A program made the position numbers and the translations under genes. A stretch of 64,000 nucleotides of DNA from Haloterrigena turkmenica DSM 5511 (GTDB lineage: Archaea > Halobacteriota > Halobacteria > Halobacteriales > Natrialbaceae), in contig NC_013745.1 of NCBI RefSeq assembly GCF_000025325.1, positions 310,001 to 374,000 on the forward strand. Reading direction: 5' to 3'. Each line of letters begins with the position of its first letter. Position 1 is the first letter of the stretch. The notes under the pieces are model-generated. The model was not told the origin of the DNA. It did not search any database and saw only the letters and a program-made list of their open reading frames with translations. Shown piece by piece: positions 16,776 through 49,954 of this stretch.

Positions 16776-17939
16776 ATGTCCATGAATGCCGTCGTCTACA
16801 AAGGCGAACGCGAGGTTGCGGTCGAAGAAGTCGAACAACCCCAGATCGAGCACCCGAATGACGTCGTGATCGACATCACGACGACGTGCATCTGCGGGTC
16901 CGACCTACACATGTACGAAGGGCGGACGGCCGCAGAGTCGGGGATCGTGTTCGGGCACGAGAACATGGGTATCGTGACAGAGGTCGGCGATGCGGTGAGT
17001 TCCCTCGAGGTGGGCGACCGCGTCGTGGCGCCGTTCAACGTCGCCTGTGGCTTCTGTGAGAACTGCGAGAACGGCTACACGGGCTTCTGTACGAACGTCA
17101 ACCCCGGGTTCGCCGGCGGCGCGTACGGGTACGTCGCGATGGGGCCGTATCAGGGTGGTCAGGCCGAGCAACTCCGCATTCCGTACGCGGACTTCAATGC
17201 GCTCAAACTGCCCGACGGGGACGAACACGAGGACTCGTTTGCACTGCTCGCGGACATCTTCCCGACCGGCTGGCACGGCACGGAACTCGCCAACCTCGAG
17301 TCCGGTGACTCCGTCGCTATCTACGGCGCCGGTCCGGTGGGCCTGATGGCGGCCTACAGCGCCAAGCTCAAGGGTGCCGCGGAGATTTACGTCGTCGACC
17401 GCGTTCCCAGCCGCCTCGAACTGGCCGAGGAACACTGCGACGCGACACCGATCAACTTCGAGGAGGGCGATCCGGTCGAACAGATCAAGGACCTCCACGG
17501 CGGCGGCGTGGACAAGGGCGTCGATGCCGTCGGATACCAGGCTATCGATCCGGATAAGGAAGGCGACGACGCGTACGACCCCGCTCGCGAGAACCCAGCT
17601 GTCGTCATCAATAATCTCATCCGGACGGTCCGCCCGACCGGTGAGCTCGGAATTCCGGGACTGTATGTCCCCGATGACCCCGGTGCACCGGACGACATGG
17701 CCGCACAGGGCCGTCTCGGTATCGACTTCGGCCTCCTCTTCGAGAAGGGGCAGGCACTCGGCACCGGCCAGTGCAACGTCAAGGAGTACAATCGCGAACT
17801 CCGCGACATGATCATCGAAGGGCGCGCCGATCCCAGCTGGGTCGTCTCGCACCGCGTCGACCTGGAGGACGCGCCGGAGATGTACGAGAAATTCGACAAC
17901 CGCGAGGAAGGCGTCACGAAGGTCCTGCTGGAACCGTAA
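16776..17939 (+). CDS. Glutathione-independent formaldehyde dehydrogenase (zinc alcohol dehydrogenase family)
   Basis: A 387-aa medium-chain zinc dehydrogenase. The catalytic-zinc region reads CICGSDLHMYEG and GHENMG; the structural-zinc cysteines are in CGFCENCENGYTGFC; the NAD Rossmann motif is YGAGPVGLMAA. The insertions near AYGYVAMGPYQGG and the DPDKEGDD segment are typical of Pseudomonas-type formaldehyde dehydrogenase that needs no glutathione (recalled). It would oxidise formaldehyde to formate with NAD. Rieske demethylation releases formaldehyde and the window also encodes a formate dehydrogenase, so a detoxification and energy role fits. Other short aldehydes or alcohols remain possible substrates. 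Confidence 0.88.
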   Translation: MSMNAVVYKGEREVAVEEVEQPQIEHPNDVVIDITTTCICGSDLHMYEGRTAAESGIVFGHENMGIVTEVGDAVSSLEVGDRVVAPFNVACGFCENCENGYTGFCTNVNPGFAGGAYGYVAMGPYQGGQAEQLRIPYADFNALKLPDGDEHEDSFALLADIFPTGWHGTELANLESGDSVAIYGAGPVGLMAAYSAKLKGAAEIYVVDRVPSRLELAEEHCDATPINFEEGDPVEQIKDLHGGGVDKGVDAVGYQAIDPDKEGDDAYDPARENPAVVINNLIRTVRPTGELGIPGLYVPDDPGAPDDMAAQGRLGIDFGLLFEKGQALGTGQCNVKEYNRELRDMIIEGRADPSWVVSHRVDLEDAPEMYEKFDNREEGVTKVLLEP

Positions 17940-19571: not shown

Positions 19572-20030
19572 TTACGCCTGCTTCCGCAGGTACTCGATGA
19601 CGGTTCCGGTGTCTTGTCCAACCCATCGCCCTGCGTAACGATCGAACCGCCGCCATCGCCGAACTCCGCCGTGACATCGTCGACAACCTCGCCGGCGTCC
19701 GGTTCGCCCGTTGTCGCGACGACCAGGAACGAACTACCGTTGACGCCGGTACGTGCGATTACGTCCGCCGCGCGTTCGGCGTTCTTTCTCTCATCGATCC
19801 GCATTCGGATGGCTGTGAGATCGATAGCGTACTCAACACGGACGAGATCGGGACACGGATTCGAGACGTCCAGCACCGCTATCGGGCCGACCTCGCTGGT
19901 GTTTCTTACGTGCGTGCCGCAGGCCGCGACGTCCTACTCGTCGATCTCGATTACGCGAACCGTATCGGACGATTCGCCGTTATATTCGATAGCATCGACT
20001 TGCGTGCGATCATCAAATAAACCCAATCTA
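19572..20030 (-). pseudogene. Alanyl-tRNA editing protein (AlaX-type), C-terminal relic
   Basis: The minus strand reads TVRVIEIDE, a stop (TAG where the family has Trp), then DVAACGTHVRNTSEVGPIAV, LVRVEYAIDLTAIRMRIDER, and a DHHA1-like end EFGDGGGSIVTQGDGLDKTP. After that a frameshift leads to VIEYLRKQA and a stop. The CxTH metal-site motif of AlaX/AlaRS editing domains is visible. The N-terminal half of the same gene lies at 20540-21010, on the other side of a small transporter gene. It is non-functional as it stands. Confidence 0.75.
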
Positions 20031-20438
20031 TCGAGTGATTAAAATGATGCTGAGACAGGCGAACGCGATTCCAGTAAATCTCGTTATCGTAACATCGTCT
20101 CCGAGAATGACGATACCGAGGACGGCCGCGACGACGAAGTACATGGCACCGAGAGTAGAGACCAGTGTCGTTGACGCTTGGGAGAATCCGATGTACATCG
20201 AAATGAGGCCGATTCCAGCGAACAATCCAGCCGCGCTAGCAAGCAGCCCTCCTCTCGCAGTAACGGCGATCGACGCATCTGAAACGACGATAGATCCAAG
20301 TGCGAGAAGACCCGCTACGAGATACGTGATCGCGGCGGCAGTTCTCGGATCGATGGACTCCGACGCACCGTTGCCTAAGATTATCCAAATCCCCCACGAC
20401 GTCATTGTAATTAAGCCGAAGAAAATTCCCGAATCCAT
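20028..20438 (-). CDS. Small DMT-superfamily (EamA-like) membrane transporter
   Basis: About 136 aa with four hydrophobic helices: the FFGLITMTSWGIWIIL start, a second at about 40-60, a third containing GLISMYIGFSQAS, and a fourth AMYFVVAAVLGIVILGD with a tail helix. This is the half-size EamA type that works as a dimer. The start at 20438 aligns with the paralog at 30596-31009; ATG 20453 is an alternative. The gene sits exactly between two halves of a broken AlaX gene, and its stop overlaps the relic's sequence. The substrate is unknown. Confidence 0.75.
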   Translation of the reverse strand: MDSGIFFGLITMTSWGIWIILGNGASESIDPRTAAAITYLVAGLLALGSIVVSDASIAVTARGGLLASAAGLFAGIGLISMYIGFSQASTTLVSTLGAMYFVVAAVLGIVILGDDVTITRFTGIAFACLSIILITR

Positions 20439-20539
20439 TCCGATAAATCCCATCAGTGAGTTCTTCGTATCGCTATGTGAAGAAAACCCACGTGCATAAT
20501 GAAAGGTGTTTAAAAACCCGCTGCTGAAGGTTGTTGTTC

Positions 20540-21097: not shown

Positions 21098-22108
21098 TTA
21101 TGAGTTATAGGCCTCCTGGGCGAGCTGGTGGAAGCGGTGGACGGTGTGTTCGTTGGGGCCGAGCTGAGCCTGGGCGAGCGCGCCCGTTCTGAGCCCTTCC
21201 CACTGACGTTCGACCAGTTCGAAGTCCTCTTCCTGGAGCTGGCGGCTCGTGCGAACGAACTCGCGCTCCTCCTCGGAGAGCTCGCTGTCGCGGAAGTAGT
21301 AGTCCGCGATCAGTCGGAAGCGATCGGTGTCGATCGGGTCGATGATGTAGGTGCCGTAGCCGTCGGCGGTGCCGTACATGTTGACCGTGAAGTTCGGCCA
21401 GAAGTAATGGAACTGCGCCTCGTGTTCGTCGTGGATCCGCATCTCGTCGTCGACGTCCTGGGCGTGCGTGTAGTGGAGCACCCAGTGGTAGTCGTTGACC
21501 TCGAGTTCGGAGTCGTTGAGCGAGATGCCCTTGATCCAGTCCTGGTGGTTGGCCTGACAGTGGTCGCACTCCGAGTAGTTGCTCGCGAACACCTTCCAGT
21601 TGCACTCGACCTCCGAGACGATTCGGGTGGCGTGTTCGTACTCCCCAAGGGGCAGCGCCTCGAGGCGGTCTTTCATCACGCCGGCCTGCTCGGCCAGCGG
21701 CATCGGATCCTCCTGCAGGTTGACGAACTGCAGCGGACCGATGCTGTCGACGTGCACCGACTCCACGTCGGCGAGCTCGTCCGGATCGACGCGTCCGGGA
21801 TCGGTCATCGGCGCGTCCTCGAGGAGCGCGTCGCCGTCGCGAGCGGAGAAGTTCTCCACGGCGCGGACGTCACCGTCGTCGTCTCGAGCGATGATGAGGT
21901 CGCGGCCGCCGATGGTCCGCGTGAAGTATTGGCCGGGCTCACTGATGCTGTTAGCGTGGCCGGCGTAGACCCAGTACTGCCCGAATATCTTCTCTTTTTC
22001 CATCTCGAAGACGTCGTCGTCGGTGAAGTACCGGGCCGGTAGCGCGTTCGTCTTCTCCGTGATGTCTGCGCTCACTGCCTCGGTCTGGTTTTGGTTCCAT
22101 TGCGTCAT
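21098..22108 (-). CDS. Rieske-type oxygenase paralog lacking the Rieske cluster ligands
   Basis: 336 aa, with a start at ATG 22108 that aligns with the intact copy at 32549-33682. The C-terminal catalytic half keeps the mononuclear-iron motif NYSECDHCQANH and differs from the intact copy by about four residues over some 210. The N-terminal part is only moderately similar: the CAHRGS motif is FSARDGD here, and about 41 residues containing the second pair CPYH are deleted. No [2Fe-2S] cluster can form in the usual way. It may be a broken duplicate repaired over its 3' half, a subunit that borrows electrons from the intact paralog in a mixed trimer, or a pseudogene without stops. The reading frame is open throughout. 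Confidence 0.85.
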   Translation of the reverse strand: MTQWNQNQTEAVSADITEKTNALPARYFTDDDVFEMEKEKIFGQYWVYAGHANSISEPGQYFTRTIGGRDLIIARDDDGDVRAVENFSARDGDALLEDAPMTDPGRVDPDELADVESVHVDSIGPLQFVNLQEDPMPLAEQAGVMKDRLEALPLGEYEHATRIVSEVECNWKVFASNYSECDHCQANHQDWIKGISLNDSELEVNDYHWVLHYTHAQDVDDEMRIHDEHEAQFHYFWPNFTVNMYGTADGYGTYIIDPIDTDRFRLIADYYFRDSELSEEEREFVRTSRQLQEEDFELVERQWEGLRTGALAQAQLGPNEHTVHRFHQLAQEAYNS

Positions 22109-22635
22109 ACAGTAGCACAATTGAGGGCATTACGAAAAAGCGTTAACCAGTTATATAGAATCCCATTATATGTCCGGTTTCCAGATCCGGATAGCGGATC
22201 ACTCTGCGACATCGATTTGACCTTCTCGAGCCAGCGACTCGCCGCTTTACGCGCTCGAAGCGCTGCGATACCCCGACAACGAGAAGTCGAACATGATAGG
22301 GGCCGAATCATCAGTATACTGAACCGGTGCCGCGCCGGCGGAACCGAGCGGAAGATCAGGAGAACTGATCGACCCGTTTCCGTCTTTGAAGGTGTCCACG
22401 ATCATACTGATGACGCAGTTACCGAAGCCCCCGAGGTTACAGTGGGGGTCGACGTCTGCCTCGACCTGTCGCGGCCGGCCTCGTCAAGAAATCGTTCGCA
22501 AATCTCCGACGGAGGCTGGCCCACCCGTCTGCTAGTCCCAGAGCGTCGCGTTTGCTGCTATCAACGGTCCGGTATAACGACCCGTCATTTAGCACCCCCA
22601 CGTTTATCATGTGCTGAGTTGGCACAAATCGTGAG
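22109..22635. other. Intergenic upstream of the Rieske-less paralog
   Basis: A TATA-like TTATATAGAA lies at 22148-22157, oriented so it could serve the minus-strand gene. No gene was recognised in the rest. Confidence 0.5.
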
Positions 22636-24976: not shown

Positions 24977-25081
24977 ATGCGAGAGAAAGACACTCATGCG
25001 GACCGAGAGACGTCCATAAACGGTACGGCCACGGAATCGCCCGGCATTCTCGACGCGAAACGCGAGGGTGAGCGCCGATGA
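24977..25081 (+). CDS. Short ORF translationally coupled to the alcohol dehydrogenase
   Basis: A 34-aa frame (MREKDTHADRETSINGTA and onward) whose TGA overlaps the dehydrogenase ATG as ATGA at 25078-25081. Its ATG is at the position where a leaderless transcript from the 24944-24950 TATA box would begin. The peptide is hydrophilic with no recognised domain. It may be a leader that couples translation, a micro-protein, or a chance frame. Confidence 0.45.
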   Translation: MREKDTHADRETSINGTATESPGILDAKREGERR

Positions 25082-26277
25082 GCCTCGGCGACTACACGCT
25101 CACCTTCCCGATCTGGGTCGAATTCGGGAACGGGTCCAGCGAGAACATCGGATCGATCGTCGATTCTCAGGGCTGGGAGAAGGCACTGATCGTCACGGAT
25201 CAGGGGATCCTCGACGCCGGCTTGGTTGACGGGATCCAAACGTCGCTCACTGCCGAAGGCATCGAATACGCTACCTACGACGGAGTCGAGCCCAACCCGA
25301 CGGCCGGGATGGTCGACGAAGCGACCGAACTGTTGGAGAGAGAGGGATGTGACTTCATCGTCTCCGTCGGCGGCGGAAGTTCGATCGACGTCGGAAAGGG
25401 CGCGTCGCTGATGGCGACCAATCCGGGAGAGATCGCCGATTACGAAGTGACGTCGGCCGAGGAGGTAATGGAGGAACCGATCGAGAACCACCCCCTCCCG
25501 CTGGTGACGGTACCGACGACCGCCGGAACCGGCAGCGAGGTCGACTACTGGGCCGTTATCACCGACGAAGAACGCGAGTTCAAGATGGCCCTCGGCCAAT
25601 CGCCGCTGTACCCGGGCGGACCGTACCTGGGCGCCGAAATATCGCTGGTCGATCCCGCCCTGACGGAGACGCTACCGCCGAGACAGACCGCCGCGACCGG
25701 TTTCGACGCCTTCTCCCACGCGCTCGAGAATCACGTGTCGTCCGCCCGCCCGCCCCTCGTCGAACCGCTGACCAAACACGTGATGGGACTCGTCTCGGAA
25801 CACCTCCCCGCCGCCTACGAGGACGGTGAGCTGGAGGCGCGCGAGCAGATGATGTTCGGCTCTCACGTGGCGGGGATCTGCGAGAACTTCGCCGGATTCG
25901 GAGCGATCCACTCCCTGGCCGAAACGACCGGCGGAATGTATCCCGAAATTCCACACGGTGAGGCCATCGCCGCGTACACCCCCGCAGTGATGCGATACAA
26001 CATCGAAGCCGTTCCCGGACGATACGCCGAAGTCGCCGAAGCGATGGACGTGGACGTTTCCGGGTTATCCGACGAGGAGGCCGCGAGGGAAGCGGTGGAC
26101 GCCGTAGAGGACCTCATCGACAGGGTCGACCTCCCCTCGAGCCTCCGCGAACTCGGCGTCGCGGAGGACGATCTCCCCGCGATCGCGGAGAAGTCGTTGG
26201 ACACGATCGAGATCCACGACAACCCCCGAGACGCGGACGCCGACGACCTCTTGGAAGTCGCTCGGGACGCGTACTGA
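25078..26277 (+). CDS. Iron-containing (type III) alcohol dehydrogenase, possible choline dehydrogenase
   Basis: A 399-aa Fe-ADH with NAD-binding SVGGGSSIDVGKG and TTAGTGSEV. The metal ligands lie in GFDAFSHALENHV, GAIHSLAETTGG and IPHGEAIA. It oxidises an alcohol to an aldehyde in the cytoplasm. An aldehyde dehydrogenase of betaine-aldehyde type and a BCCT carrier follow on the same strand and an IclR regulator precedes, so choline to betaine aldehyde is a reasonable substrate guess. Bacterial choline oxidation usually uses BetA or type III BetB-linked enzymes, so this is inference. The start overlaps a short upstream ORF. Confidence 0.9.
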   Translation: MSLGDYTLTFPIWVEFGNGSSENIGSIVDSQGWEKALIVTDQGILDAGLVDGIQTSLTAEGIEYATYDGVEPNPTAGMVDEATELLEREGCDFIVSVGGGSSIDVGKGASLMATNPGEIADYEVTSAEEVMEEPIENHPLPLVTVPTTAGTGSEVDYWAVITDEEREFKMALGQSPLYPGGPYLGAEISLVDPALTETLPPRQTAATGFDAFSHALENHVSSARPPLVEPLTKHVMGLVSEHLPAAYEDGELEAREQMMFGSHVAGICENFAGFGAIHSLAETTGGMYPEIPHGEAIAAYTPAVMRYNIEAVPGRYAEVAEAMDVDVSGLSDEEAAREAVDAVEDLIDRVDLPSSLRELGVAEDDLPAIAEKSLDTIEIHDNPRDADADDLLEVARDAY

Positions 26278-26494
26278 TCGTCGCGAATCGCGAAACGCAG
26301 CCGATCGAGGGACCGGTGGTGCATCGGTTTCGATGGAAGCGACGGGCAGTTCCGAACGGACGCGACTGCATCGGCCACACCCCTCCGTCGCGGCGTCGGT
26401 CATCGGTAGTCTCATCGATCATCGGGAACGGTGCGGCAGGGGGTTTCGTTCGCGGCTCCGATTTTCGAACTCGAAGCTCTAGCGTCGATGAGCC

Positions 26495-26509
26495 GATACT
26501 AAGATATAT
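26495..26509 (+). promoter_or_regulatory. Promoter box GATACTAAGATATAT
   Basis: A TATA element 30-36 bp before the aldehyde dehydrogenase ATG at 26539. It shares the ACTAAGAT core with the promoter at 24934, which suggests joint control of the two dehydrogenases. Confidence 0.6.
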
Positions 26510-26538
26510 GAAGGATGGTAACAAACCACTTCCTGTAA

Positions 26539-28059
26539 ATGGCATCAGAGACTGTTAGCGGCCAGTTACGGGAGAATCACGCGGAAGCCAGAGACCGGGT
26601 CGAGGATATCAGCACGTTCGACTCGTGGATAGACGGATCTCGATACGAGACCGACGAGGTCGTCGAGACCACCGATCCCGTCGTCGGTGAACCGATCACC
26701 GCGATTCCGCGCTGCGGCTCGAGTGAGGTCGATACGGCAGTCGACGCCGCGTGGAGAGCGTTCGACGAGGAGTGGTCGGAGACGACCCCTGCCGAACGAT
26801 CTCGGCGCATGTTCGAATGGATCGACGTGCTCCGCGATCACGTCGACGAGCTGGCGTTCCTGGAGTGCGTAGACACCGGGAAGCCGATGTCGCAGGCTCG
26901 AGGAGAGGTCGAAGGGGCGATCGGAACCTTAGAATACTACGCGTCGATCTGTCAGGGCCAGAGTCAGGACGGGAGACAGGTGTCTACGTCCGAGGATCTG
27001 CACCTCTACACGCGGAAGGAGCCTTACGGCGTGGTCGGACAGATCACGCCGTGGAACTTCCCGGTCTGGGCGGCCGCGTGGAAGCTCGGGCCCGCGCTCG
27101 GGACGGGGAACGCGACCGTGCTGAAGCCGTCGGCCGAGGCCCCGCTGACGACGATCCGCATCGCCGAACTGTCCGAGGGTATCTTCCCGGACGGCGTGCT
27201 TAACGTCGTAACCGGGACCGGATCAGAGGCCGGCGGTGCGCTGACTGAACACGATCGGGTCCGCAAAATCTCGTTCACCGGCAGCGTCGGCGTCGGACAG
27301 CGAGTGATGCAGGCGGCCGCCGAAAACGTTGCCCCAGTTACGTTGGAGCTCGGCGGGAAGTCGCCGTTTATCGTGTTTCCCGACGCCGACTTGGAGAAGG
27401 CGGTTTCCGCCGTCGCCGACGGTATCTTTTACAGCACGGGGGAGATCTGTGACGCGTTCTCTCGAGCGATCGTTCACGAGAGCGTTCACGAGGAGTTCGT
27501 CGACCGGTTCGTCGAGAAGGCCGAGTCCTACACGCTCGGGGATCCGCTCGACGAGGAGACGACGATGGGACCGCTCACTACCGAGTCCCAGTACGAGACG
27601 GTCACGGAATACATCGACGTTGGTGAGAGTGAAGGCGCGACCCTGCTTACGGGCGGTGGACCGCCGGACGATTCCGATCTCCGGGACGGCTGGTTCGTCA
27701 AACCGACGGTGTTCGACGACGTGGAGAACGATATGCGCATCGCTCGGGAGGAAATCTTCGGGCCCGTACAGACGATCAACACGTTCTCCAGCTACGACGA
27801 GGCGATCGAACTCGCGAACGACACCGAGTTCGGGCTCGCAGCGGGCATCGCGACCGAGCGGACGTCCGTCGTCCACAACGCGGCGGCGGACATCGAAGCG
27901 GGGCTCGTGTACGTCAACGAGTACGGTCCGATCCTGCCGCAGGCTCCGTACGGCGGCTTCAAGGAGTCGGGTATCGGAAAAGATCTGGGCACGGAGGTGC
28001 TCGACCACTACCAGCAGACGAAATCGGTCTACGTCAATCTCGATGAGCCGGAACTCTGA
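26539..28059 (+). CDS. NAD(P)-dependent aldehyde dehydrogenase, betaine-aldehyde type
   Basis: A 506-aa ALDH. Motifs: GQITPWNFPVW, SFTGSVGVGQ, TLELGGKSPFIVF with the general-base Glu, the catalytic Cys in GEICDAFSR, EEIFGPV, and the C-terminal PYGGFKESGIGKDLG. The length and motifs match betaine-aldehyde and related dehydrogenases (BetB). It probably converts betaine aldehyde to glycine betaine after the Fe-ADH, although substrate choice in this family cannot be read reliably from sequence. It has its own promoter box and is followed by the BCCT carrier gene. Confidence 0.92.
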   Translation: MASETVSGQLRENHAEARDRVEDISTFDSWIDGSRYETDEVVETTDPVVGEPITAIPRCGSSEVDTAVDAAWRAFDEEWSETTPAERSRRMFEWIDVLRDHVDELAFLECVDTGKPMSQARGEVEGAIGTLEYYASICQGQSQDGRQVSTSEDLHLYTRKEPYGVVGQITPWNFPVWAAAWKLGPALGTGNATVLKPSAEAPLTTIRIAELSEGIFPDGVLNVVTGTGSEAGGALTEHDRVRKISFTGSVGVGQRVMQAAAENVAPVTLELGGKSPFIVFPDADLEKAVSAVADGIFYSTGEICDAFSRAIVHESVHEEFVDRFVEKAESYTLGDPLDEETTMGPLTTESQYETVTEYIDVGESEGATLLTGGGPPDDSDLRDGWFVKPTVFDDVENDMRIAREEIFGPVQTINTFSSYDEAIELANDTEFGLAAGIATERTSVVHNAAADIEAGLVYVNEYGPILPQAPYGGFKESGIGKDLGTEVLDHYQQTKSVYVNLDEPEL

Positions 28060-28263
28060 CGAGAGGGTTCGGAGAGACGGTGTCGTCGTGACTGACGAGA
28101 TGGTGACATCGCGGCGTGGTCGAGGAGACCGTCTCCGTCACCACTGACCGAAGGCGACGGAGGCGCCCGAGCGATCCCGAATACGAGAGACGGAACGCGG
28201 GACCGAATCCTCCGTCGTTCGCGCCGGAATCGCGTACGACGACGGTTCTCGTTTCGATATTTT
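28060..28263. other. Intergenic before the BCCT operator region
   Basis: No gene recognised. It leads into the palindromic operator candidate at 28264-28300. Confidence 0.45.
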
Positions 28264-28310
28264 GGTCGAATTTTTCGACCGAATCGTCGATATGGTCGAA
28301 AGGTATAAGT
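28264..28310 (+). promoter_or_regulatory. Palindromic operator candidate with TATA box
   Basis: A perfect palindrome with arms GGTCGAA (28264-28270) and TTCGACC (28274-28280) is followed by a third half-site GGTCGAA at 28294-28300. A TATA-like GGTATAAGT stands right after it at 28302-28310. Three copies of a 7-bp half-site next to a TATA box is how a repressor or activator site for the downstream carrier gene would look. Confidence 0.6.
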
Positions 28311-28351
28311 ATCGCTCCGTTGGGATAGCAGATGCACTGGTAATACATAAC

Positions 28352-28417
28352 ATGAGTCACGCATCGGACCGGGGATCGATTACGGAGACGTGTAGTTCCA
28401 CCATCGAAAAACAATGA
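28352..28417 (+). CDS. Short leader ORF coupled to the BCCT carrier
   Basis: A 21-aa frame (MSHASDRGSITETCSSTIEK and one Gln). Its TGA overlaps the carrier ATG as ATGA at 28414-28417. It lies between the TATA box and the carrier, so it would be translated first. No domain. It may be a coupling leader or coincidence. Confidence 0.35.
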   Translation: MSHASDRGSITETCSSTIEKQ

Positions 28418-30015
28418 ACTTCTGGCACGTATTCGGCCTGGAAAGCGCAGACACCGGTGAGAAACTCCTGTTCTTCATCACTGGAGGGGCATTGCTGGCG
28501 TTAGCAGCGATCGGGATTCGGAGCCCACAGGTCCTCAACGATACGTTCAACGAGGCCTTCGGATGGGTGTTAACCTACTTCGGTTGGTGGTTCATGTTAC
28601 TCGGGATGGTATTGCTCGTCTTCTCGACGTACATGGTCTTCTCGCGATACGGCCACATTCGGATCGGCGGGCAGGACGCCGAGCCAGAGTTCGATCTGTT
28701 CTCGTGGCTCGCCATGGTGTTCACGGTCGGGTACAGCGGCTCGATCATCATTTGGGGCGTCGGCGAGCCCATCTCCATCGTGAACAGTCCGCCTCCGGAG
28801 CCGCTTCCGGTCACGGGGGCCTCGATCGAAGCGCTCGCGCTCGCGTTCATGTTCATCCACGAGGTCTTCCCGGGACTCGCCATGTGGTATCCGCCGTTCG
28901 CGTTGGCGTTCGGCCTGATCATCTACACGCGCGGTACGGACTCGTACAAGTTCAGTTCGATGCTGAAGGTGTTCCTCGACGACGACCGGTACAAGCTCCT
29001 CTACTGGACCGTCGACTTGGCGGCGCTGATCGCCATTATCGGCGGTGTCGCGGCGGCTATCGGGTTCTCCGCGCAGGTGTTCGCCGCCCTGCTGGATACG
29101 GTGTTCGGCGTTCCCCCGACGCTGTTCACGTACGGGCTGTTCGGCGTTCTCGGACTGGTCTTCCTCGGTGACGTCTGGTTGGGACTGCGAAGCGGAATTC
29201 GCAACGCGGCTCGGATCACCGTCGTCCTCATGTTGATCACGTTCGCGCTGCTCCTCGCGGTCGGACCGACGCTCTTCACGATTAACCTCGGGCTCGACGC
29301 CGGCGGCGTATGGCTGAACAACATGTTCCGCCTCTCGCTGTACTCCGCTCCGACGGCTGCGGGCAATTGGCCGCAACAGTGGACGAGTTTCTGGTGGGCG
29401 TGGTGGGCCGCGTGGGGTCTGTTCGTCGGCAGTTTCGTCGCCCGCGTGTCGAAGGGCCGAACCATCCGCGAGACGTTCGTTTGCCTGGTCGTTATTCCCG
29501 GTGTGCTGCTCTGGATACAGCACTCCATCGTCGGCGGCTGGGTGCTCGCACCGGGATACGTCGGGCCGGTCAGTGACGCGTTTGCCAGCGGCGGTATCCC
29601 CGCCTCGATCGCGACTGCGGTCACTCTCACGCCGCTCGCACCCCTGCTGGGAGTGTTGCTCATCTTGGTGATCGCCGGATACGTCGTGACGTCCCTGGAC
29701 TCGGCCGTGTACATCCTCTCTTCGATAACGCTCGGCACGGAGGAGCCGAACGCTCGAAACCGGGCGTGGTGGGGCGTCCTGCTCTCCTTCCTCGGCGTGA
29801 TGACGCTCGAACTCCCGGTGTTCGACGCGATGCAAGCGTTTCCCCCGGTGCTCGCGCTCCCGTTCACGCTCTTCCTCTTGGCGATCGTCTACGCGAGTTA
29901 CGTCACCGCTCGCGAATACTATCAGGGAGAGTCCACGCTGGCGAACGAGGATACGTTGATCACGTCCGCGAACACCGATTCCTCGCTTCCACAGGGGCAG
30001 GACGACGATGACTAG
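28414..30015 (+). CDS. BCCT-family transporter, divergent member
   Basis: A 533-aa membrane carrier with about 12 hydrophobic helices. The Trp-rich helix, SFWWAWWAAWGLFVGSF followed by KGRTIRE, is the BCCT hallmark, but it differs from the three other BCCTs here, and the early SAGIGAGIVFWGPAE-type segment reads TVGYSGSIIIWGVGEP. It imports a quaternary ammonium compound or related substrate with Na+ or H+; its place after the choline-type dehydrogenases suggests choline. The acidic C-terminal tail ends in four Asp. The start overlaps a short leader ORF. Confidence 0.9.
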   Translation: MNFWHVFGLESADTGEKLLFFITGGALLALAAIGIRSPQVLNDTFNEAFGWVLTYFGWWFMLLGMVLLVFSTYMVFSRYGHIRIGGQDAEPEFDLFSWLAMVFTVGYSGSIIIWGVGEPISIVNSPPPEPLPVTGASIEALALAFMFIHEVFPGLAMWYPPFALAFGLIIYTRGTDSYKFSSMLKVFLDDDRYKLLYWTVDLAALIAIIGGVAAAIGFSAQVFAALLDTVFGVPPTLFTYGLFGVLGLVFLGDVWLGLRSGIRNAARITVVLMLITFALLLAVGPTLFTINLGLDAGGVWLNNMFRLSLYSAPTAAGNWPQQWTSFWWAWWAAWGLFVGSFVARVSKGRTIRETFVCLVVIPGVLLWIQHSIVGGWVLAPGYVGPVSDAFASGGIPASIATAVTLTPLAPLLGVLLILVIAGYVVTSLDSAVYILSSITLGTEEPNARNRAWWGVLLSFLGVMTLELPVFDAMQAFPPVLALPFTLFLLAIVYASYVTAREYYQGESTLANEDTLITSANTDSSLPQGQDDDD

Positions 30016-30595: not shown

Positions 30596-31009
30596 TTAGT
30601 TCGCGATCAGCGCGATGGCGATACCAGCCAGGAGGATCCCCGCAGTATCAGTCATCTGCAAGGATTCTTCCAGAAAGACGACCGCAATAACCGCCGCGAC
30701 GACGAAATAGAGGGCGCTGATGGTCGTGACGACCGCGGCGTCACCCCTCGCGAGCGCCGCGTACAGGGCGATTCCACCGGCCGCCGACGCGACACCGGCG
30801 AGCGCGGCGTAGAACAGGCCGTCGTAGACCACGGCCGTCGGGACCTTCCGTGTGGCACCCATATAGGTAACGGCGACGAGCGTCCCCACCGCGTAGGAGA
30901 TACCCATCGCCGTTTCCGGAAGGATGGAATCCGTCGCGAGCCTGGCGAAAACCGCCCACAGACCCCACGCGATCATCGTTACTACCGCGAGCAGTATCGG
31001 ACGTCCCAT
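30596..31009 (-). CDS. Small DMT-superfamily (EamA-like) membrane transporter
   Basis: 137 aa with four helices, starting MGRPILLAVVTMIAWGLW. The last two helices, ISALYFVVAAVIAVVFLEE and ILLAGIAIALIAN, are typical of half-size EamA proteins. It is a paralog of the transporter at 20028-20438. The ATG at 31009 is chosen because hydrophobic sequence starts at once after it; a longer start adds eight residues. The substrate is unknown; osmolyte or amine efflux would suit the context but is a guess. Confidence 0.8.
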   Translation of the reverse strand: MGRPILLAVVTMIAWGLWAVFARLATDSILPETAMGISYAVGTLVAVTYMGATRKVPTAVVYDGLFYAALAGVASAAGGIALYAALARGDAAVVTTISALYFVVAAVIAVVFLEESLQMTDTAGILLAGIAIALIAN

Positions 31010-31240
31010 ACAGTGCATGTTCACACGGACCACTATTACCGTTAGCGTACCGACAGCCGAGTCGCGTGACCGAACCCCGACCGGTTCCCCGGAATCGAGC
31101 CGAACGGCTCCGCGAGCGGTGGGATACTGCCCCTCTCTCGGAGCGGGGTGACGGTCCCGATCTCGGGGACGGACGGTCGATGTGATTCGCCCGTCGGTCG
31201 GACCAGTCAGCTATTTCTGTCGACGGACGAGAGAACCGGT

Positions 31241-32130: not shown

Positions 32131-32490
32131 TCAGAACGCACCGAGGTGATCGTCCTGCGGTTCGTACAGTCCGCCGGTCATCCGCACCTCGTGGATCTCG
32201 TCTAACGTCTCGCCGATCGATAGTCCGCGGTCGGACATCGCCGCCGCGACGACGCCGATCGGGACGCCGTTCTCGTACTGCTCTTGCAGCTGCCAGACGA
32301 CGTCCTTGAGCTCGTCGCTCGCGACGTCCTCGGCGAGATCTACCTGTGCGCGTTCGAACTCCACGTCGTGGCCCGTCACGCGATAGTGACGGCGGTAGAA
32401 CTCGACGATCTCGTTCGGCTCCTCGGTTTGCAGATCGACGTCACACTCTGGACAGGATGCGACGTACGGTGCCTGATCTTGCGTGCTCAT
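32131..32490 (-). CDS. Small zinc-ribbon protein with MCM-like C-terminal winged helix
   Basis: 119 aa. The N-terminus carries SCPECDVDL, a single CxxC. The C-terminus, WQLQEQYENGVPIGVV to MTGGLYEPQDDHL, resembles the winged-helix tail of haloarchaeal MCM proteins (the GxxYEPxxxxL ending). It lies 58 bp downstream of the intact Rieske oxygenase on the same strand and is probably co-transcribed with it. A DNA-binding or regulatory role is plausible; I know of no established function. Confidence 0.65.
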   Translation of the reverse strand: MSTQDQAPYVASCPECDVDLQTEEPNEIVEFYRRHYRVTGHDVEFERAQVDLAEDVASDELKDVVWQLQEQYENGVPIGVVAAAMSDRGLSIGETLDEIHEVRMTGGLYEPQDDHLGAF

Positions 32491-32548: not shown

Positions 32549-33682
32549 TCACGAGTCGTAGGCCTCCTGGGCGAGCTGGTGGAACTTGTGGACGGTGTGT
32601 TCGTTGGGACCGAGTTGGGCCTGGGCGAGCGCGCCCGTTCTGAGGCCTTCCCACTGGCGTTCGACCAGTTCGAAGTCCTCTTCCTGGAGCTGGCGGCTCG
32701 TGCGAACGAACTCGCGCTCCTCCTCGGAGAGCTCGCTGTCGCGGAAGTAGTAGTCCGCGATGAGCTGGAAGCGGTCGGTATCGATCGGATCGATGATGTA
32801 GGTGCCGTAGCCGTCGGCGGTACCGTACATGTTAACCGTGAAGTTTGGCCAGAAGTAGTGGAACTGCGCCTCGTGTTCGTCGTGGATCCGCATCTCGTCG
32901 TCGACGTCCTGGGCGTGCGTGTAGTGGAGCACCCAGTGGTAGTCGTTGACCTCGAGTTCGGAGTCGTTGAGCGAGATGCCCTTGATCCAGTCCTGGTGGT
33001 TGGCCTGGCAGTGGTCGCACTCCGAGTAGTTGCTCGCGAACACCTTCCAGTTGCACTCGACCTCCGAGACGATTCGGGTGGCGTGTTCGTACTCCCCAAG
33101 GGGCAGCGCCTCGAGGCGATCTTTCATCACGCCGGCCTGCTCGGCCAGCGGCATCGGATCCTCACTGAGGTTCACGAAGATCAGCGGGCCGATGGTGTCG
33201 ACGTGGACGTCGTTCAGGGCGTTCTCTTCGGCGTCGAACTCCTGGACGTCTTCGTCCTCGAGGTCGGGGTTCAGACCGGCTTCATCGAAGCTCTTGGGCG
33301 TGCTTTTGAGCTCTCCCTCGAGGTCATACGTCCAGAGGTGATACGGACACTTGATCCGCTTCGCATCGCCGGGATCGGTCATCGGCGTGTCCTCGACCAT
33401 CTTCGAGCCGCGGTGGGCACAGACGTTGTCGAACGCTTTGACCTCGCCGTCGTGACCGCGGACGACGATCAGTTGACGATCACCGATCGTCCGGGTGAAG
33501 TACTGGCCCGATTCCTTGATACAGTTGGCGTGGCCGGCGTACACCCAGTACTGGCCGAACACCTTGTCTTTCTCTATCTCGAAGACGTCCGGGTCAGTGA
33601 AATACCTCGCCGGTAACGCGTTTGATTTTTCCGTGATATCTGAACTCACTGATTGCGTCTGTGAGTCGTCCCACTGTGTCAT
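32549..33682 (-). CDS. Rieske non-heme iron oxygenase, probable quaternary-amine N-demethylase (large subunit)
   Basis: 377 aa. The Rieske [2Fe-2S] ligands are Cys88 and His90 in CAHRGS and Cys112 and His115 in CPYHLW. The mononuclear iron site is in NYSECDHCQANH (His224, His229), with Glu221 in the bridging position; a Glu there is reported for carnitine oxygenase CntA and similar quaternary-ammonium Rieske enzymes (recalled). The third ligand is probably the Asp of EEDFELVERQ. Glycine betaine to dimethylglycine plus formaldehyde is the best guess, given the dimethylglycine-type dehydrogenase 1 kb away. No dedicated reductase lies nearby. The ATG at 33682 is preceded by a TATA box at leaderless distance. 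Confidence 0.9.
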   Translation of the reverse strand: MTQWDDSQTQSVSSDITEKSNALPARYFTDPDVFEIEKDKVFGQYWVYAGHANCIKESGQYFTRTIGDRQLIVVRGHDGEVKAFDNVCAHRGSKMVEDTPMTDPGDAKRIKCPYHLWTYDLEGELKSTPKSFDEAGLNPDLEDEDVQEFDAEENALNDVHVDTIGPLIFVNLSEDPMPLAEQAGVMKDRLEALPLGEYEHATRIVSEVECNWKVFASNYSECDHCQANHQDWIKGISLNDSELEVNDYHWVLHYTHAQDVDDEMRIHDEHEAQFHYFWPNFTVNMYGTADGYGTYIIDPIDTDRFQLIADYYFRDSELSEEEREFVRTSRQLQEEDFELVERQWEGLRTGALAQAQLGPNEHTVHKFHQLAQEAYDS

Positions 33683-33702: not shown

Positions 33703-33710
33703 CATATAAA
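33703..33710 (-). promoter_or_regulatory. TATA box of the intact Rieske oxygenase gene
   Basis: The AT-only run CATATAAA (plus strand) stands 21-28 bp upstream of ATG 33682, fitting a leaderless transcript on the minus strand. Confidence 0.5.
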
Positions 33711-33845
33711 AAACAGTTCACCTGTGATACTGAACCTCACTATAAACAAGTGAGAATTACGTTTCAGCGGAGACACAAAAGAGCAACTGAGAGACGTCGG
33801 GAATTCAGTCGCTTACCGAATGAGTGTCTCCGAGTCTCTCGCCGA

Positions 33846-34727: not shown

Positions 34728-37301
34728 ATGAACGCAGACGACAGCTTGCCGGACCAAGCGGACACTGTTATTGTCGGTGCCGGTATTGTCGGGTGCAACC
34801 TGGCATACCAGCTCACTGAACTCGGCCGAGACGACGTCGTCGTCGTCGATCAGGGACCGATGCCAACCACTGGCGGGTCTTCCAGCCACGCACCGGGGAT
34901 CATGTTCCAGACTTCCGAGTCGAAGATCCTCTCGAAGTTCGCCAAGTACAGCCGTAACCTGTACTCGGACCTGGAAGACGACGACGGAGTTCAGGCCTAC
35001 AAGGAAGTCGGCGGCATCGAGGTCGCGCGGAGCGACGAGCGGATGGACTACCTCCAGCGCCGCGTTGAGTGGGCCGAATCCTGGGGGCTCCCGAACCCGG
35101 AGGTCCTCTCGCCCGAGGAAGTAGAAGAAAAGCTGCCGCTCGTCGACACCGACGTGATCCAGGGAGGGTACTACTCACCGACTGACGGCCAGGTGTCTGG
35201 CGTCGTCGCCTGCGCTGCCCTCGCCAGAGAAGCCATGGACCGGGGAGCGAAGTTCGTTCCGCATACCCGCACCGAAGACGTCGAGACCGAGAACGGGTCG
35301 GTCAGCTCGGTTATCACCGAAAATGGGACTATCGAGTGTAACGAGGTCGTCATCGCGACGAACATCTGGGCGCGTCAGCTGGGCGAGAAACTCGACGTTC
35401 ACCTCCCGGTGACGCCGGTCGAGCACCAGTACACGATGACCGAGTCGCTCGAGGATCTCGCCGACAACCGGGTCGACGTCAGCGATCACCCGCTGTACGA
35501 GAACTATAAGGGCGTCTCCGGAGACAAAACCGACCGCCTGCTCGCGAGTCCTGACCGGCCGATCCTCCGCGATCAGGACAACGCGATGTACTTCCGGACG
35601 CACGGGGACTCCTACGGAATCGGCTCGTACAACCACGAACCCATTGTACCTGATCCGCAGGACCTCGGCGGCAACGAGGAAGACGCTGAACAGGGCTCGG
35701 TCCACGAGTTCACCGAGTATCACATGAACAACGCGACGCACCCGGATCGGCCGGACAAGGCGCCCCGCCAGGCCAGCGACGAACTGCTGCCCGCCACCGA
35801 GGGGAAGGAACTCGAACACAAATACAACGGGATGTTCGCGGAGTCGCCGAACGGCCTGCCGGTGATGGGTCCGGTCCAGAAATACGACGGTCTCTGGACC
35901 GCGGCCGCCATCTGGGTCACTCACGCCGGCGGCGCCGGCAAGGCGCTCGCCGAGTGGATGGAAAACGGTATCCCTCGTCTCTCCGACGGACCGATCGACC
36001 TCCGGCACTGCAACGTCAATCGGTTCGACGCCCACGAAGGCAGCTGGGACTTCGCGCGAGACATCGGCGGCGAGGAGTACCGCATCGTCTACAACATCAT
36101 GCACCCGAAGTGGGTCTGGACGGATCATCAGCGCGACATCCGCCGCACGCCGATGTACCACAGCCACAAGGAACTCGACGCCGAGCTGTGGGCCGAAGCC
36201 GGGTGGGAGGAACCGCAGTGGTTCGAGTCCAACGCCGACCTGCTCGCCGAGTACGGCGAGCAGATCCCGGACCGCGAGGGCTGGGTGGGCAAGTACTGGT
36301 CGCCCATCGAGGGCGCGGAGGCGCTCCACGTCCGCAACAAGGTCGGCCTCCACGACATGACGTCGTTCAATAAGATGGAGGTCGTCGGGAGCGATGCCGG
36401 AGACTTCGTCCAGCGCCTCTGTACGAACGACATGGACCTCGACATCGGCGACGTCCGGTACACCTTGATGTGTAACGAGGAGGGCGGCGTCCGCGCGGAC
36501 ATCACCGTCACGCGCGTCGACGACAACCGCTACCTCCTTCTGACGACCGGTCGTGAGGTCGGAAACAACCACGTCGCGTGGGTCCGCGAGCAGTCCCCCG
36601 AGGACGTGGTCGTCAACGACGTTACCTCCAGCCTAGCGGCGATGGTCTGTACCGGTCCGAACGCGCGGAAGGTACTCTCCGAGGTGACGGACGTGGACCT
36701 CTCCGACGAGGCGTTCCCGTTCTTCACGAGTCAGCAGTTCTTCATCAAGAACGTTCCCGTCACCGCGCTCCGGGTGTCCTACGCCGGCGAACTCGGCTGG
36801 GAGCTGTACACGCCCTCCGAGTACGGCGAGCAGCTCTGGGAGCACCTCATGGAGGCCGGCGAAGAGTACGACATTCGCCCGTACGGTAATGGTGCGCTGA
36901 ACGCGCTGCGCATCGAGAAGGGCTTCCGGCTGTGGGGCGAGGACCTCCACACCGAGCACAACCCCTACGAGACGGATCTCGGATGGGCCGTCGACCTGGA
37001 GACCGACTTCATCGGGAAGGAAGCGGTCGTCGAAGCGGCCGAGGGTAACAACATCGACCACAAGGTCGCGTGCCTGACCCTCGACGACGAAGAGGCGACG
37101 ATCCTCCCTCACCGTCCGATCTTCGACGGTGACGAACCGATCGGCTACGTACACAGCGCCGAGTACGGGTACACGGTCGGCGCCTGCGTCGTCTACACGT
37201 ACCTCCCACCGGAGTACGCGGAGCCCGGGACCGAACTCGAGATCGAGTACGAGGGCGAACGGTACGACGCCACCGTTCGCGAGGAACCGCTCCTCGATTA
37301 A
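34728..37301 (+). CDS. FAD-dependent oxidoreductase/aminomethyltransferase, dimethylglycine or sarcosine dehydrogenase family
   Basis: 857 aa in two parts. Residues 1-400 form a DAO-type FAD domain with GAGIVG at 17-22 and GGSSSHAPG, in which His54 sits where dimethylglycine dehydrogenase binds FAD covalently. Residues 430-850 form a GcvT-like tetrahydrofolate domain, with GLHDMTSFNKMEVVG, FVQRLCTNDMDLDIGDVRYT, YAGELGWELYTPSEY and GNGALNALRIEKGFRLWGED. Such proteins oxidatively demethylate dimethylglycine or sarcosine and pass the methylene group to THF. It has its own promoter and is followed by a T-tract terminator. The exact substrate is inferred from the Rieske, glyA and betaine-transport neighbours. 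Confidence 0.93.
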   Translation: MNADDSLPDQADTVIVGAGIVGCNLAYQLTELGRDDVVVVDQGPMPTTGGSSSHAPGIMFQTSESKILSKFAKYSRNLYSDLEDDDGVQAYKEVGGIEVARSDERMDYLQRRVEWAESWGLPNPEVLSPEEVEEKLPLVDTDVIQGGYYSPTDGQVSGVVACAALAREAMDRGAKFVPHTRTEDVETENGSVSSVITENGTIECNEVVIATNIWARQLGEKLDVHLPVTPVEHQYTMTESLEDLADNRVDVSDHPLYENYKGVSGDKTDRLLASPDRPILRDQDNAMYFRTHGDSYGIGSYNHEPIVPDPQDLGGNEEDAEQGSVHEFTEYHMNNATHPDRPDKAPRQASDELLPATEGKELEHKYNGMFAESPNGLPVMGPVQKYDGLWTAAAIWVTHAGGAGKALAEWMENGIPRLSDGPIDLRHCNVNRFDAHEGSWDFARDIGGEEYRIVYNIMHPKWVWTDHQRDIRRTPMYHSHKELDAELWAEAGWEEPQWFESNADLLAEYGEQIPDREGWVGKYWSPIEGAEALHVRNKVGLHDMTSFNKMEVVGSDAGDFVQRLCTNDMDLDIGDVRYTLMCNEEGGVRADITVTRVDDNRYLLLTTGREVGNNHVAWVREQSPEDVVVNDVTSSLAAMVCTGPNARKVLSEVTDVDLSDEAFPFFTSQQFFIKNVPVTALRVSYAGELGWELYTPSEYGEQLWEHLMEAGEEYDIRPYGNGALNALRIEKGFRLWGEDLHTEHNPYETDLGWAVDLETDFIGKEAVVEAAEGNNIDHKVACLTLDDEEATILPHRPIFDGDEPIGYVHSAEYGYTVGACVVYTYLPPEYAEPGTELEIEYEGERYDATVREEPLLD

Positions 37302-46690: not shown

Positions 46691-47941
46691 ATGGCGTTCA
46701 AACAATCGCTCGAGCAGATAGATCCGAATACGGCCGAGGCTATCGACCTCGAGCGTGAACGGCAGGAATCGACGCTGGGGATGATCGCCTCCGAGAATCA
46801 CGTCTCGAAAGCCGTGCTCGAAGCACAGGGGAGCGTCCTCACGAATAAGTACGCCGAGGGATACCCCGGCGGGAGATACTACGGCGGCTGCCAACACGTC
46901 GACACCGTCGAGGAACTCGCTATCGAACGCGCGAAGGAACTGTTCGGGGTCGACCACGCCAACGTGCAACCCCACAGCGGCACGCAGGCCAACATGGGCG
47001 TGTACTTCTCCGTGCTCGAACCGGGCGACAAGATCCTATCGCTGTCGCTGTCGCACGGCGGACACCTCTCTCACGGCCACAACGTCAACTTCTCGGGACA
47101 GCTCTACGACGTCGAACAGTACGAGGTCGATCCCGAGACGGGGTACATCGATTACGACGAACTCGAGAGCCTCGCGCGCGAGTTCGACCCGGACATCATC
47201 GTTAGCGGCTCCTCGGCGTATCCTCGCGAATTCGAGTACGAACGTATCGGCGATATCGCGGACGCGGTCGACGCCTACCACCTCGCGGACATCGCTCACG
47301 TGACGGGGCTCGTCGCCGCCGGCGTTCACGCCTCGCCCGTCGAACACGCGGAGTTCGTCACCGGAAGCACCCACAAGACGATCCGCGCCGGCCGCGGCGG
47401 GATCATCATGTGCGACGAAGAGTTCGCGGACGACATCAACTCCGCCGTGTTTCCCGGCGCGCAGGGCGGGCCGCTGATGCACAGCGTGGCCGGCAAGGCC
47501 GCAGGGTTCGCAGAAGCGAGCACCGATGAGTTCCAGTCCTATGCCGTGCAGACCATAGCTAACGCGAATACGCTCGCCGACGAGTTCGACGACCGAGGAC
47601 TCTCGCTGGTGAGCGGTGGAACGGACAAGCACCTCATGCTCGTAGACCTCCGCGACTCCCACCCAGACATCACGGGAGAGGAGGCCGAAGAGCTACTGTC
47701 CGACGTCGGCATCATCGTCAACAAGAACACCGTACCCGGTGAAACGCGGTCGCCGATGGTGACCAGCGGGATCCGCGTCGGCACGCCGGCGCTCACGACC
47801 CGGGGATTCGGAGAAAAGGAGATGGAGACCGTTGCCGACCTCATCGTGGACGTACTCGACAATCCCGAAGACGAGGACGTTCATGACCGAGCCGCCTCGA
47901 CGGTCGAACACCTTTGCCAGGAGTTTCCCATCTACGGGTAG
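46691..47941 (+). CDS. glyA: Serine hydroxymethyltransferase
   Basis: 416 aa. PLP enzyme interconverting glycine plus methylene-THF and serine. Motifs: LGMIASENHVSKAV, YAEGYPGGRYYGGC, HSGTQANMGVYFS, DIAHVTGLVAAGVH, and the PLP lysine in TGSTHKTIRAGRGG (Lys229). It takes glycine and the one-carbon unit coming from dimethylglycine/sarcosine demethylation and makes serine. The ATG at 46691 has a normal N-terminus. It is divergent from ridA, with a shared promoter region. A T-rich CTCTTTTTAAGAG about 30 bp after the stop probably terminates the transcript. Confidence 0.96.
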   Translation: MAFKQSLEQIDPNTAEAIDLERERQESTLGMIASENHVSKAVLEAQGSVLTNKYAEGYPGGRYYGGCQHVDTVEELAIERAKELFGVDHANVQPHSGTQANMGVYFSVLEPGDKILSLSLSHGGHLSHGHNVNFSGQLYDVEQYEVDPETGYIDYDELESLAREFDPDIIVSGSSAYPREFEYERIGDIADAVDAYHLADIAHVTGLVAAGVHASPVEHAEFVTGSTHKTIRAGRGGIIMCDEEFADDINSAVFPGAQGGPLMHSVAGKAAGFAEASTDEFQSYAVQTIANANTLADEFDDRGLSLVSGGTDKHLMLVDLRDSHPDITGEEAEELLSDVGIIVNKNTVPGETRSPMVTSGIRVGTPALTTRGFGEKEMETVADLIVDVLDNPEDEDVHDRAASTVEHLCQEFPIYG

Positions 47942-48325: not shown

Positions 48326-49954
48326 TCAATCATCATCCGACTCTCGAGCTGCTGTCTCCCCTGAAGCGTCGAGTCTCGCGGACTGATTCGACGCGGAATC
48401 CGAACGATCAGTGTCGAAGAACACCGGGTGGATATCGTGACAGGGATAGCTGATCGCCAGCACCGCGAGGATGGTGATGACGGCGAAGGGACCGCCGGTG
48501 ATAATCGACGCCGCTTGGAGCGCGTCGACGCCGCCGACGACCATCAGCAGGGACGCCAGTGCCCCGACCAGGGCGCCCCAGATCACGCGGTTGATCGTGG
48601 ACGGCTCGAGTTCGCCGCCGGTGGTGAGCATTCCCAGCGCCAGCGTCGAGGAGTCCGCCGACGTGACGAAGAACGTCGTGATCAGCAGCAGGAAAAGGAG
48701 GTTCAGTACGTCGCCGGCGGGTAATGCTTCGAACAGTGGGTACCCGGAGCCGGCGACGCCATACTCGGAGATGACCCCCAGGATATCCGCCGCGTTGGTC
48801 GACTGTTCCGTGATCGCGATGCTACCCATGATCCCGAACCAAGGGATCGTCACCGCCGTCGACGCCAAGACGCCGGTGACGACTACCTGACGGATCGTAC
48901 GGCCCCGCGAAACGCGGGCGATGAACAGCCCAACGAACGGCGTCCAGGAGAACCACCAGGCCCAGTAGAAGATGGTCCAGTTACCGACCCAGCTCGCATC
49001 GTTGCCCGCGTTCATGAAGAAACTCATCGCGACGAACTGATTGATATACTGTCCGAGCGCTTCCGTCGTGACCGACATGATGTACGCTGACGGGCCCAGC
49101 ACGAACGTCAGAAGCATGACTACCACGAATAGCCCCATATTGAACCGGGACACCCGACGGACTCCCTTCTCGATACCCACCGTCACTGACAGCGTAAACG
49201 CGATCGTCAGGCCGACAATCGCCAGAATCGTTCCGGTGTCACCGACCGATACCCCGGTAGTGTACTCGATACCGGTCAGGAACTGACTCCCGACGAACCC
49301 GAGCGTCGTCGCGATACCGCCGAGGGTGGCGAACACCGCGAGGATGTCGACCAGTTTCGCCCAGACGCTGTCCAGGTTGTCGATGCCCAAGAATGGAGTG
49401 AGCACCGTCGAGACGCGCATGGGCGCGTCGTGCCGGTACGTGTAGAACGCTATGGGAAGCGACATGATAGCGTACGCGGCCCACGCAGAAAGCCCCCAGT
49501 GGAAGAACGTGTACCGGACAGCACCGACCGCTGCGTCGGCCGTCTGCGACTCGGCGCCGACGAGCGGCGGAACCGTGTCGTAGTGAAAGATCGCCTCCGC
49601 TGGGCCCCAGAACACGATCCCTGCGCCGATCCCGGCCGAGTACAGCATCGCGAAGTACGACAAGAAGCTGTACTGTGGCTCCTCGTCCGGCTTGCCGAGC
49701 TTGACGTTCCCCCACGGACCGAACACCAGGAACAGCGCGAACGCCACGATGAAGAACATCGCGAGGAGGTACATCCAGCCGACTTTTTCCTCCACCAACG
49801 AGTTCACACGCTTGACGGCGCTGGCGGCGGCGTCCGGCATCAGAGCGAAGGCGATGACTGCTACCAGCGCTGTGAGGAACCCGACGAGAAACACGGGAGC
49901 GTCGAGCTCGTTCGCGAACCGAGCGAAGCGACCGTCTGGATCAGAGTTACCCAT
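48326..49954 (-). CDS. BCCT-family betaine/choline/carnitine transporter
   Basis: 542 aa with 12 predicted membrane helices. Hallmarks: SAGIGAGIVFWGPAEAIFHY, and the substrate-site helix YWAWWFSWTPFVGLFIARVS followed by GRTIRQ. The C-terminal tail is acidic and probably cytoplasmic. It is a typical secondary carrier for glycine betaine and similar compounds, for osmoprotection or as carbon and nitrogen source. It is closely similar to the carriers at 52314 and 56083. It lies next to glyA/ridA in convergent orientation. Confidence 0.93.
   Translation of the reverse strand: MGNSDPDGRFARFANELDAPVFLVGFLTALVAVIAFALMPDAAASAVKRVNSLVEEKVGWMYLLAMFFIVAFALFLVFGPWGNVKLGKPDEEPQYSFLSYFAMLYSAGIGAGIVFWGPAEAIFHYDTVPPLVGAESQTADAAVGAVRYTFFHWGLSAWAAYAIMSLPIAFYTYRHDAPMRVSTVLTPFLGIDNLDSVWAKLVDILAVFATLGGIATTLGFVGSQFLTGIEYTTGVSVGDTGTILAIVGLTIAFTLSVTVGIEKGVRRVSRFNMGLFVVVMLLTFVLGPSAYIMSVTTEALGQYINQFVAMSFFMNAGNDASWVGNWTIFYWAWWFSWTPFVGLFIARVSRGRTIRQVVVTGVLASTAVTIPWFGIMGSIAITEQSTNAADILGVISEYGVAGSGYPLFEALPAGDVLNLLFLLLITTFFVTSADSSTLALGMLTTGGELEPSTINRVIWGALVGALASLLMVVGGVDALQAASIITGGPFAVITILAVLAISYPCHDIHPVFFDTDRSDSASNQSARLDASGETAARESDDD

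Follow-up and report, generated by a model that had tools for sequence, protein, structure and literature searches.

Gene X (21098–22108, minus strand) encodes a Rieske-less oxygenase subunit of 336 amino acids, which quite likely functions as the catalytic subunit in a heteromeric Rieske oxygenase whose [2Fe-2S] Rieske centre is supplied by a linked paralogue. The gene lies in the window, by which the whole stretch of 64,000 nucleotides that was analysed is meant, i.e., bases 310001–374000 of a 413,648-base replicon in a genome of 5,440,782 bases (5.44 Mb); positions without further label are those of the window. The replicon we take to be pHTUR02, the second plasmid of Haloterrigena turkmenica DSM 5511. 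The presumed electron-giving partner is gene B (32549–33682, minus strand), an intact Rieske oxygenase of 377 amino acids, and a third copy, C, likewise intact and with its own promoter element, lies outside the window about 41 kb from X (G000:C3:289601–290734, minus strand).

Metal sites of X and of the intact copies

X was delineated by its open frame, by profile matches and by alignment with the carnitine monooxygenase CntA, in which C86, H88, C106 and H109 bind the Rieske cluster, H208, H213 and D323 bind the mononuclear iron and E205 forms the bridge (PMC7948474). At the Rieske positions CxH...CxxH the alignment gives S, R, gap and gap for X, none of the four required ligands being present: the first pair is replaced by FSARDG (21833–21850, minus strand), and the stretch at 21728–21796 (minus strand) is without 41 residues of the intact copy, CPYH among them. 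The iron site of X is complete, with H183, H188 and D295 (21224–21226, minus strand; CntA D323) forming a 2-His-1-carboxylate triad that is identical in 14 of 14 tabulated X proteins. Both histidines belong to the motif NYSECDHCQANH (21545–21580, minus strand; compared in CntA numbering, PMC7948474), which comprises Y178, the bridging E180, C181, H183, C184 and H188. Here the bridging acid ahead of the first iron histidine, E180, aligns with CntA E205, and Y178, C181 and C184 correspond to the Group V traits Y203, C206 and C209 of CntA, which are also found in B; the cysteine pair has been noted in Group V quaternary-ammonium oxygenases (PMC10952381). All 14 tabulated X proteins keep the Tyr, the bridging Glu, both Cys, both His and the Asp of the iron site, and from all 14 the Rieske ligands are absent, except that the first His is kept in one.

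The Ring_hydroxyl_A profile matches X with 1.3e-19, and the Rieske profile covers only 41 positions with a score at the cut-off (20.3 bits). In RefSeq the X orthologue of H. salifodinae is labelled "SRPBCC family protein", and because of this label the current annotation conceals the pair of X and its partner. Monomer models of X and of a Natronococcus partner (see below) had a mean pLDDT of 49 and 42, respectively, and were fairly confident only for residues of about 41–140 of X; a fold search with the low-confidence X model had CntA as top match, by which little was gained over the sequence.

B, which was recognized by its open frame, profiles and alignment, carries the complete CxH...CxxH ligand set that X lacks (C88, H90, C112 and H115; 33338–33421, minus strand) and a mononuclear-iron motif with E221, H224 and H229 (32996–33031, minus strand). 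The preliminary description of this DNA had reported that X has a catalytic half nearly identical to that of B, a far more diverged N-terminal part, no Rieske centre and a frame that is still open, and all of this holds: exactly 4 of the last 209 residues differ and 46 of 127 aligned residues of the N-terminal part; CAHRGS has changed (its C to S and its H to R) and CPYH falls within the missing stretch; and frames of 336 and 377 amino acids are present. Chance similarity of X and B was considered and is not credible at such identities. C adjoins an uncharacterised gene and a gene of the HVO_B0008 family.

Shared promoter element

A TATA-like box followed by an element near TATnnCnGGTnAACnnnTTTT is common to X, B, C and their orthologues. 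Upstream of X it is found at 22137–22175 (minus strand) with the shared element TATAACTGGTTAACGCTTTT, and upstream of B at 33710–33749 (minus strand) with TATCACAGGTGAACTGTTTT. The pattern has exactly three occurrences genome-wide, namely ahead of X, B and C, and the reversed pattern, which served as control, has none in the whole genome. It should be noted that the recovery of X, B and C is expected because the pattern was derived from them, and that it is the absence of others which is informative. The shared element suggests that the three genes are expressed together.

Gene conversion of the 3′ half

It had been proposed that the sharp change in similarity between X and B reflects gene conversion of the 3′ half, and a breakpoint test, a comparison of nearest neighbours and a conflict between trees of the N and C parts now argue for this. 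The maximum-chi-square breakpoint lies at 21712/21713 (χ2 of 141 versus a largest value of 23 among 2000 permutations), by which even divergence along the gene is ruled out, and delimits a converted part of X (21098–21712, minus strand) that is 96% identical to the intact copy. Before the breakpoint 30.6% of the nucleotides differ between X and B and after it 3.8%, and at third codon positions alone the differences are 48.5% versus 9.3%. At synonymous sites the divergence between X and B is 1.07 (N part) and 0.185 (C part), and that between X and the X orthologue of a sister species is 0.309 and 0.288, respectively.

In the six genomes that were compared, each with X and an intact partner (G000, which is that of the window, G023, G072, G094, G098 and G108), the C part of X is in nucleotide sequence always closest to the partner in the same genome, and its N part to the X of another species. 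In keeping with this, X forms a single clade in the N-part tree (100/100) and is scattered in the C-part tree, with seven label changes. Because of these opposite neighbours and of the contrast in synonymous divergence, conversion, as read from the alignments, is repeated and limited to the catalytic half. Its direction in the window's genome was likely from B to X, since the X genes of sister species carry EEYELATRISSEV where X of the window has GEYEHATRIVSEV, the form found in the intact copies. Residue 265 of X (21314–21316) is Arg in 12 of 14 X proteins and Gln in 11 of 11 intact copies; lying in a half that is otherwise converted, it is a candidate for a position that is held different by selection.

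Distribution of X and its linked partner

Absence of orthologues without the ligands had been named as a sign of a simple pseudogene. Such orthologues were found, all with the same deletion, in 22 haloarchaeal genomes representing about 22 species. A family-level search of 125 genomes gave 16 with an ungapped match to the N part of X, a class-wide sample of 391 genomes gave three further ones, and another three, Halogranum amylolyticum, Halegenticoccus soli and Haladaptatus halobius, turned up when named genomes were scanned. X is also present in Haloterrigena salina, H. salifodinae, Natrinema versiforme, Natrinema sp. SYSU A 869, Halostagnicola, Natronorubrum thiooxidans, Natronolimnohabitans, Haloprofundus salinisoli, Halocatena salina and several Natronococcus. 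A Rieske-bearing paralogue is near X in all 22 genomes, being upstream and on the same strand in 20; in the other two (G027 and G076) it is about 14–17 kb away on the opposite strand.

In H. salina the Rieske stretch of the linked partner is interrupted by an apparent scaffold join. Real gene breaks in this genome (G004) were considered and rejected, as the breaks look like scaffold joins within near-identical repeats. An assembly artefact was likewise rejected, X being open in the complete genome of H. turkmenica (PMC3035258) and in a complete plasmid of H. salifodinae.

Reciprocal loss in Natronococcus

In six genomes of one genus, Natronococcus (N. jeotgali and N. amylolyticus among them), the partner has kept the four Rieske ligands C, H, C and H and has lost CDHC and both iron histidines via a four-residue deletion plus substitutions; the iron-site Asp is also gone in four of the six. 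For the one such partner tested, the Pfam score of the catalytic domain was below the cut-off. When these six genomes were searched with the intact protein, an intact copy was not found, only X and the degenerate partner being present, apart from one distant oxygenase (32%) in one of them. Natronococcus sp. CG52, of the same genus, has retained an intact partner. Since the six partners group in a single clade and have the same deletion in common, the reciprocal loss is to be counted as one evolutionary event and not as six.

It is likely, if slightly less so than the general reading of X given at the outset, that after duplication a split Rieske oxygenase arose in Natronococcus, of which one subunit has lost the Rieske centre and the other the iron site, and which would have to assemble as a hetero-oligomer, with electrons passing from one kind of subunit to the other, in order to work; the species of the window would then represent an earlier stage, with X specialised and intact copies still present. 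The mixed oligomer with borrowed electrons, which the preliminary description had put forward as possible, finds strong, though indirect, support in this reciprocal loss.

Selection

Values of omega were obtained by the method of Nei and Gojobori from a few pooled independent pairs, with intervals from codon bootstrap. The N part of X, for which a dN/dS analysis had been proposed as a check, has an omega of 0.24 [0.18–0.30], which indicates purifying selection and is not what a pseudogene would give; the C part has 0.07 [0.05–0.09]. For X of Natronococcus the values are 0.29 (N part) and 0.10 (C part). The Rieske part of the Natronococcus partner has an omega of 0.135 [0.09–0.19], the same as that of the intact copies (0.125), and its former catalytic part one of 0.38 [0.28–0.52] versus 0.042 in the intact copies. 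The N part of X is considered partly relaxed because its omega is twice that of the intact copies. The halves with surviving metal sites are constrained, and the other halves are relaxed without being neutral, as would be expected of a scaffold role.

Proposed mechanism

Cross-subunit electron transfer in Rieske oxygenases is known from structures and mutants of homotrimers in which each chain has both sites. From the loss of ligands, conservation, selection, conversion, the promoter element and reciprocal loss, all of which were observed, we infer the assembly, the electron path and the substrate of the heteromer. X would bind the mononuclear iron and the substrate, and the Rieske centre of the partner would reduce the iron of X over the subunit interface. 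In the head-to-tail trimer of this family the Rieske centre of each subunit faces the iron of its neighbour, and because the two centres of a chain are too distant and the bridging Glu on the iron side is retained in X, an adjacent partner would complete one active site. In the organism of the window there are two intact copies with which X could mix; in Natronococcus the pair would be obligate. The composition of the ring would matter, since among the contacts in a ring of three built from X and a Rieske-only partner just one is productive, which seems wasteful and counts against the heteromer.

Alternative explanations

X trimers could also be an oxygenase on their own that receives electrons from a separate carrier, the Natronococcus partner being a transiently docking Rieske ferredoxin. 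There is a precedent in NdmC, whose electrons come from the Rieske domain of a different protein (PMC4408171), and the Rieske part of the Natronococcus partner is constrained as strictly as that of the intact copies. However, this partner retains about 190 residues of the former catalytic domain under an omega below 1 (0.38), which a carrier would not need; where intact, the partner is a normal oxygenase subunit; and X has retained the bridging Glu, through which CntA makes contact with the Rieske centre of the neighbour. We therefore regard a separate carrier as unlikely. Rather improbable is a non-catalytic, regulatory X that lowers or tunes the activity of rings of intact subunits or stores them, even though X is not obviously required for catalysis in the organism of the window with its two complete copies: the sole remaining iron site in Natronococcus sits in X, and the most constrained part of X is its catalytic half.

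That X is a decaying pseudogene held open by repeated conversion, with both genes decaying in Natronococcus, is very improbable and already largely refuted by the selection test. It is true that the C part of X is coupled to the intact copy by conversion and that the N part evolves faster in X than in the intact copies, but the N part is not reached by conversion and nevertheless has an open frame in every genome, with the shared deletion and the low omega given above (0.24 [0.18–0.30]). Moreover, the C part of Natronococcus X is constrained (omega 0.10) and bears no trace of conversion with the degenerate partner, and the promoter element has been retained. A lone pseudogene was rejected because of the orthologues and of selection. 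A catalytic X that depends on the Rieske centre of its paralogue remains the preferred reading.

Comparison with known systems

The nearest solved relative is the carnitine monooxygenase CntA/YeaW of Group V (PDB 6y8j), which is the best sequence match of the intact copy (4e-41). CntA is a homotrimer with both centres in each chain; these are 44 Å apart within the subunit, and electrons cross between subunits via E205 (PMC7948474). Y203, E205, C206, H208, C209, H213 and D323 are all matched in X and in the intact copy; the difference is the absence of a Rieske centre from X and of an iron site from the Natronococcus partner. The best NCBIfam model for both X and the intact copy is that of the glycine betaine monooxygenase GbcA, which has similar pathway neighbours. 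With 74.5 bits (X) and 144.7 bits (intact copy) versus a cut-off of 670 for the GbcA equivalog NF058607, neither is a member.

NdmC of the N7-demethylase NdmCDE is a Rieske-less N-demethylase fed by the Rieske domain of another protein (PMC4408171) and resembles X in being a non-heme-iron oxygenase of the Rieske family without a Rieske cluster of its own. In NdmCDE, however, the Rieske domain is fused to a reductase and a GST-like protein is required, whereas here the donor would be a full-length oxygenase paralogue, in which a profile search found no reductase domain and hence no fusion of the NdmCDE type. Reciprocal loss of sites within one genus also distinguishes X and its partner from NdmCDE. 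The α3α′3 heterohexameric Rieske oxygenases have two homologous α-type subunits per enzyme (review PMC12445004). In the literature searched, most of it outside subscription papers, no account was found of subunits that have lost the two metal sites in a complementary manner, and only NdmCDE and the α3α′3 class came up for a mixed or split-site α pair.

A natural pair with one site each would be a ready-made complementation test, as it could function only by cross-subunit transfer. The pair would also illustrate how mutual dependence arises between duplicated subunits of a symmetric enzyme, with living intermediates still extant, and how one domain of two paralogues can be kept alike by gene conversion while divergence proceeds in the other.

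Neighbourhood, substrate and electron donor

Conserved neighbours of X and B are a small protein of the HVO_B0008 family (32131–32490, minus strand), the gene of which is found between partner and X in compact clusters, a FAD oxidoreductase fused to GcvT domains that resembles dimethylglycine/sarcosine dehydrogenases (34728–37301, plus strand), and a glutathione-independent formaldehyde dehydrogenase (16776–17939, plus strand). Genes for an iron alcohol dehydrogenase, an aldehyde dehydrogenase and a BCCT transporter lie between X and B (25078–30015, plus strand). This set would fit the breakdown of choline and glycine betaine with formation of formaldehyde. Judged by these neighbours, the substrate would belong to the quaternary ammonium compounds, glycine betaine being the most likely one, and would be N-demethylated oxidatively with release of formaldehyde. 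A dedicated flavin/ferredoxin reductase is a trait of Group V, but for such a CntB-type reductase (NAD_binding_1, PF00175) there is no match in the genome of the window, whereas such a match exists in 10 of 14 control genomes; the X, B and C oxygenases probably receive their electrons from a donor of a different type.

Four large hydrophobic transporter-like genes are found in the window (28414–30015, 48326–49954, 52314–53924 and 56083–57741), of which the first is identified as a BCCT transporter through its orthologue in H. salifodinae and the other three resemble betaine-type carriers (putative). Two related small genes for EamA-type transporters flank the region that lies between X and B (20028–20453 and 30596–31018). 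A tRNA-Cys predicted at 47461–47550 lies within a serine hydroxymethyltransferase-like gene (46691–47941) and is probably a false prediction. On the chromosome (G000:C1:22969–23340) a fragment of 115 residues from the C-terminus of a related oxygenase, apparently a remnant, lies by a gene that resembles those of FAD-dependent amino-acid oxidases.
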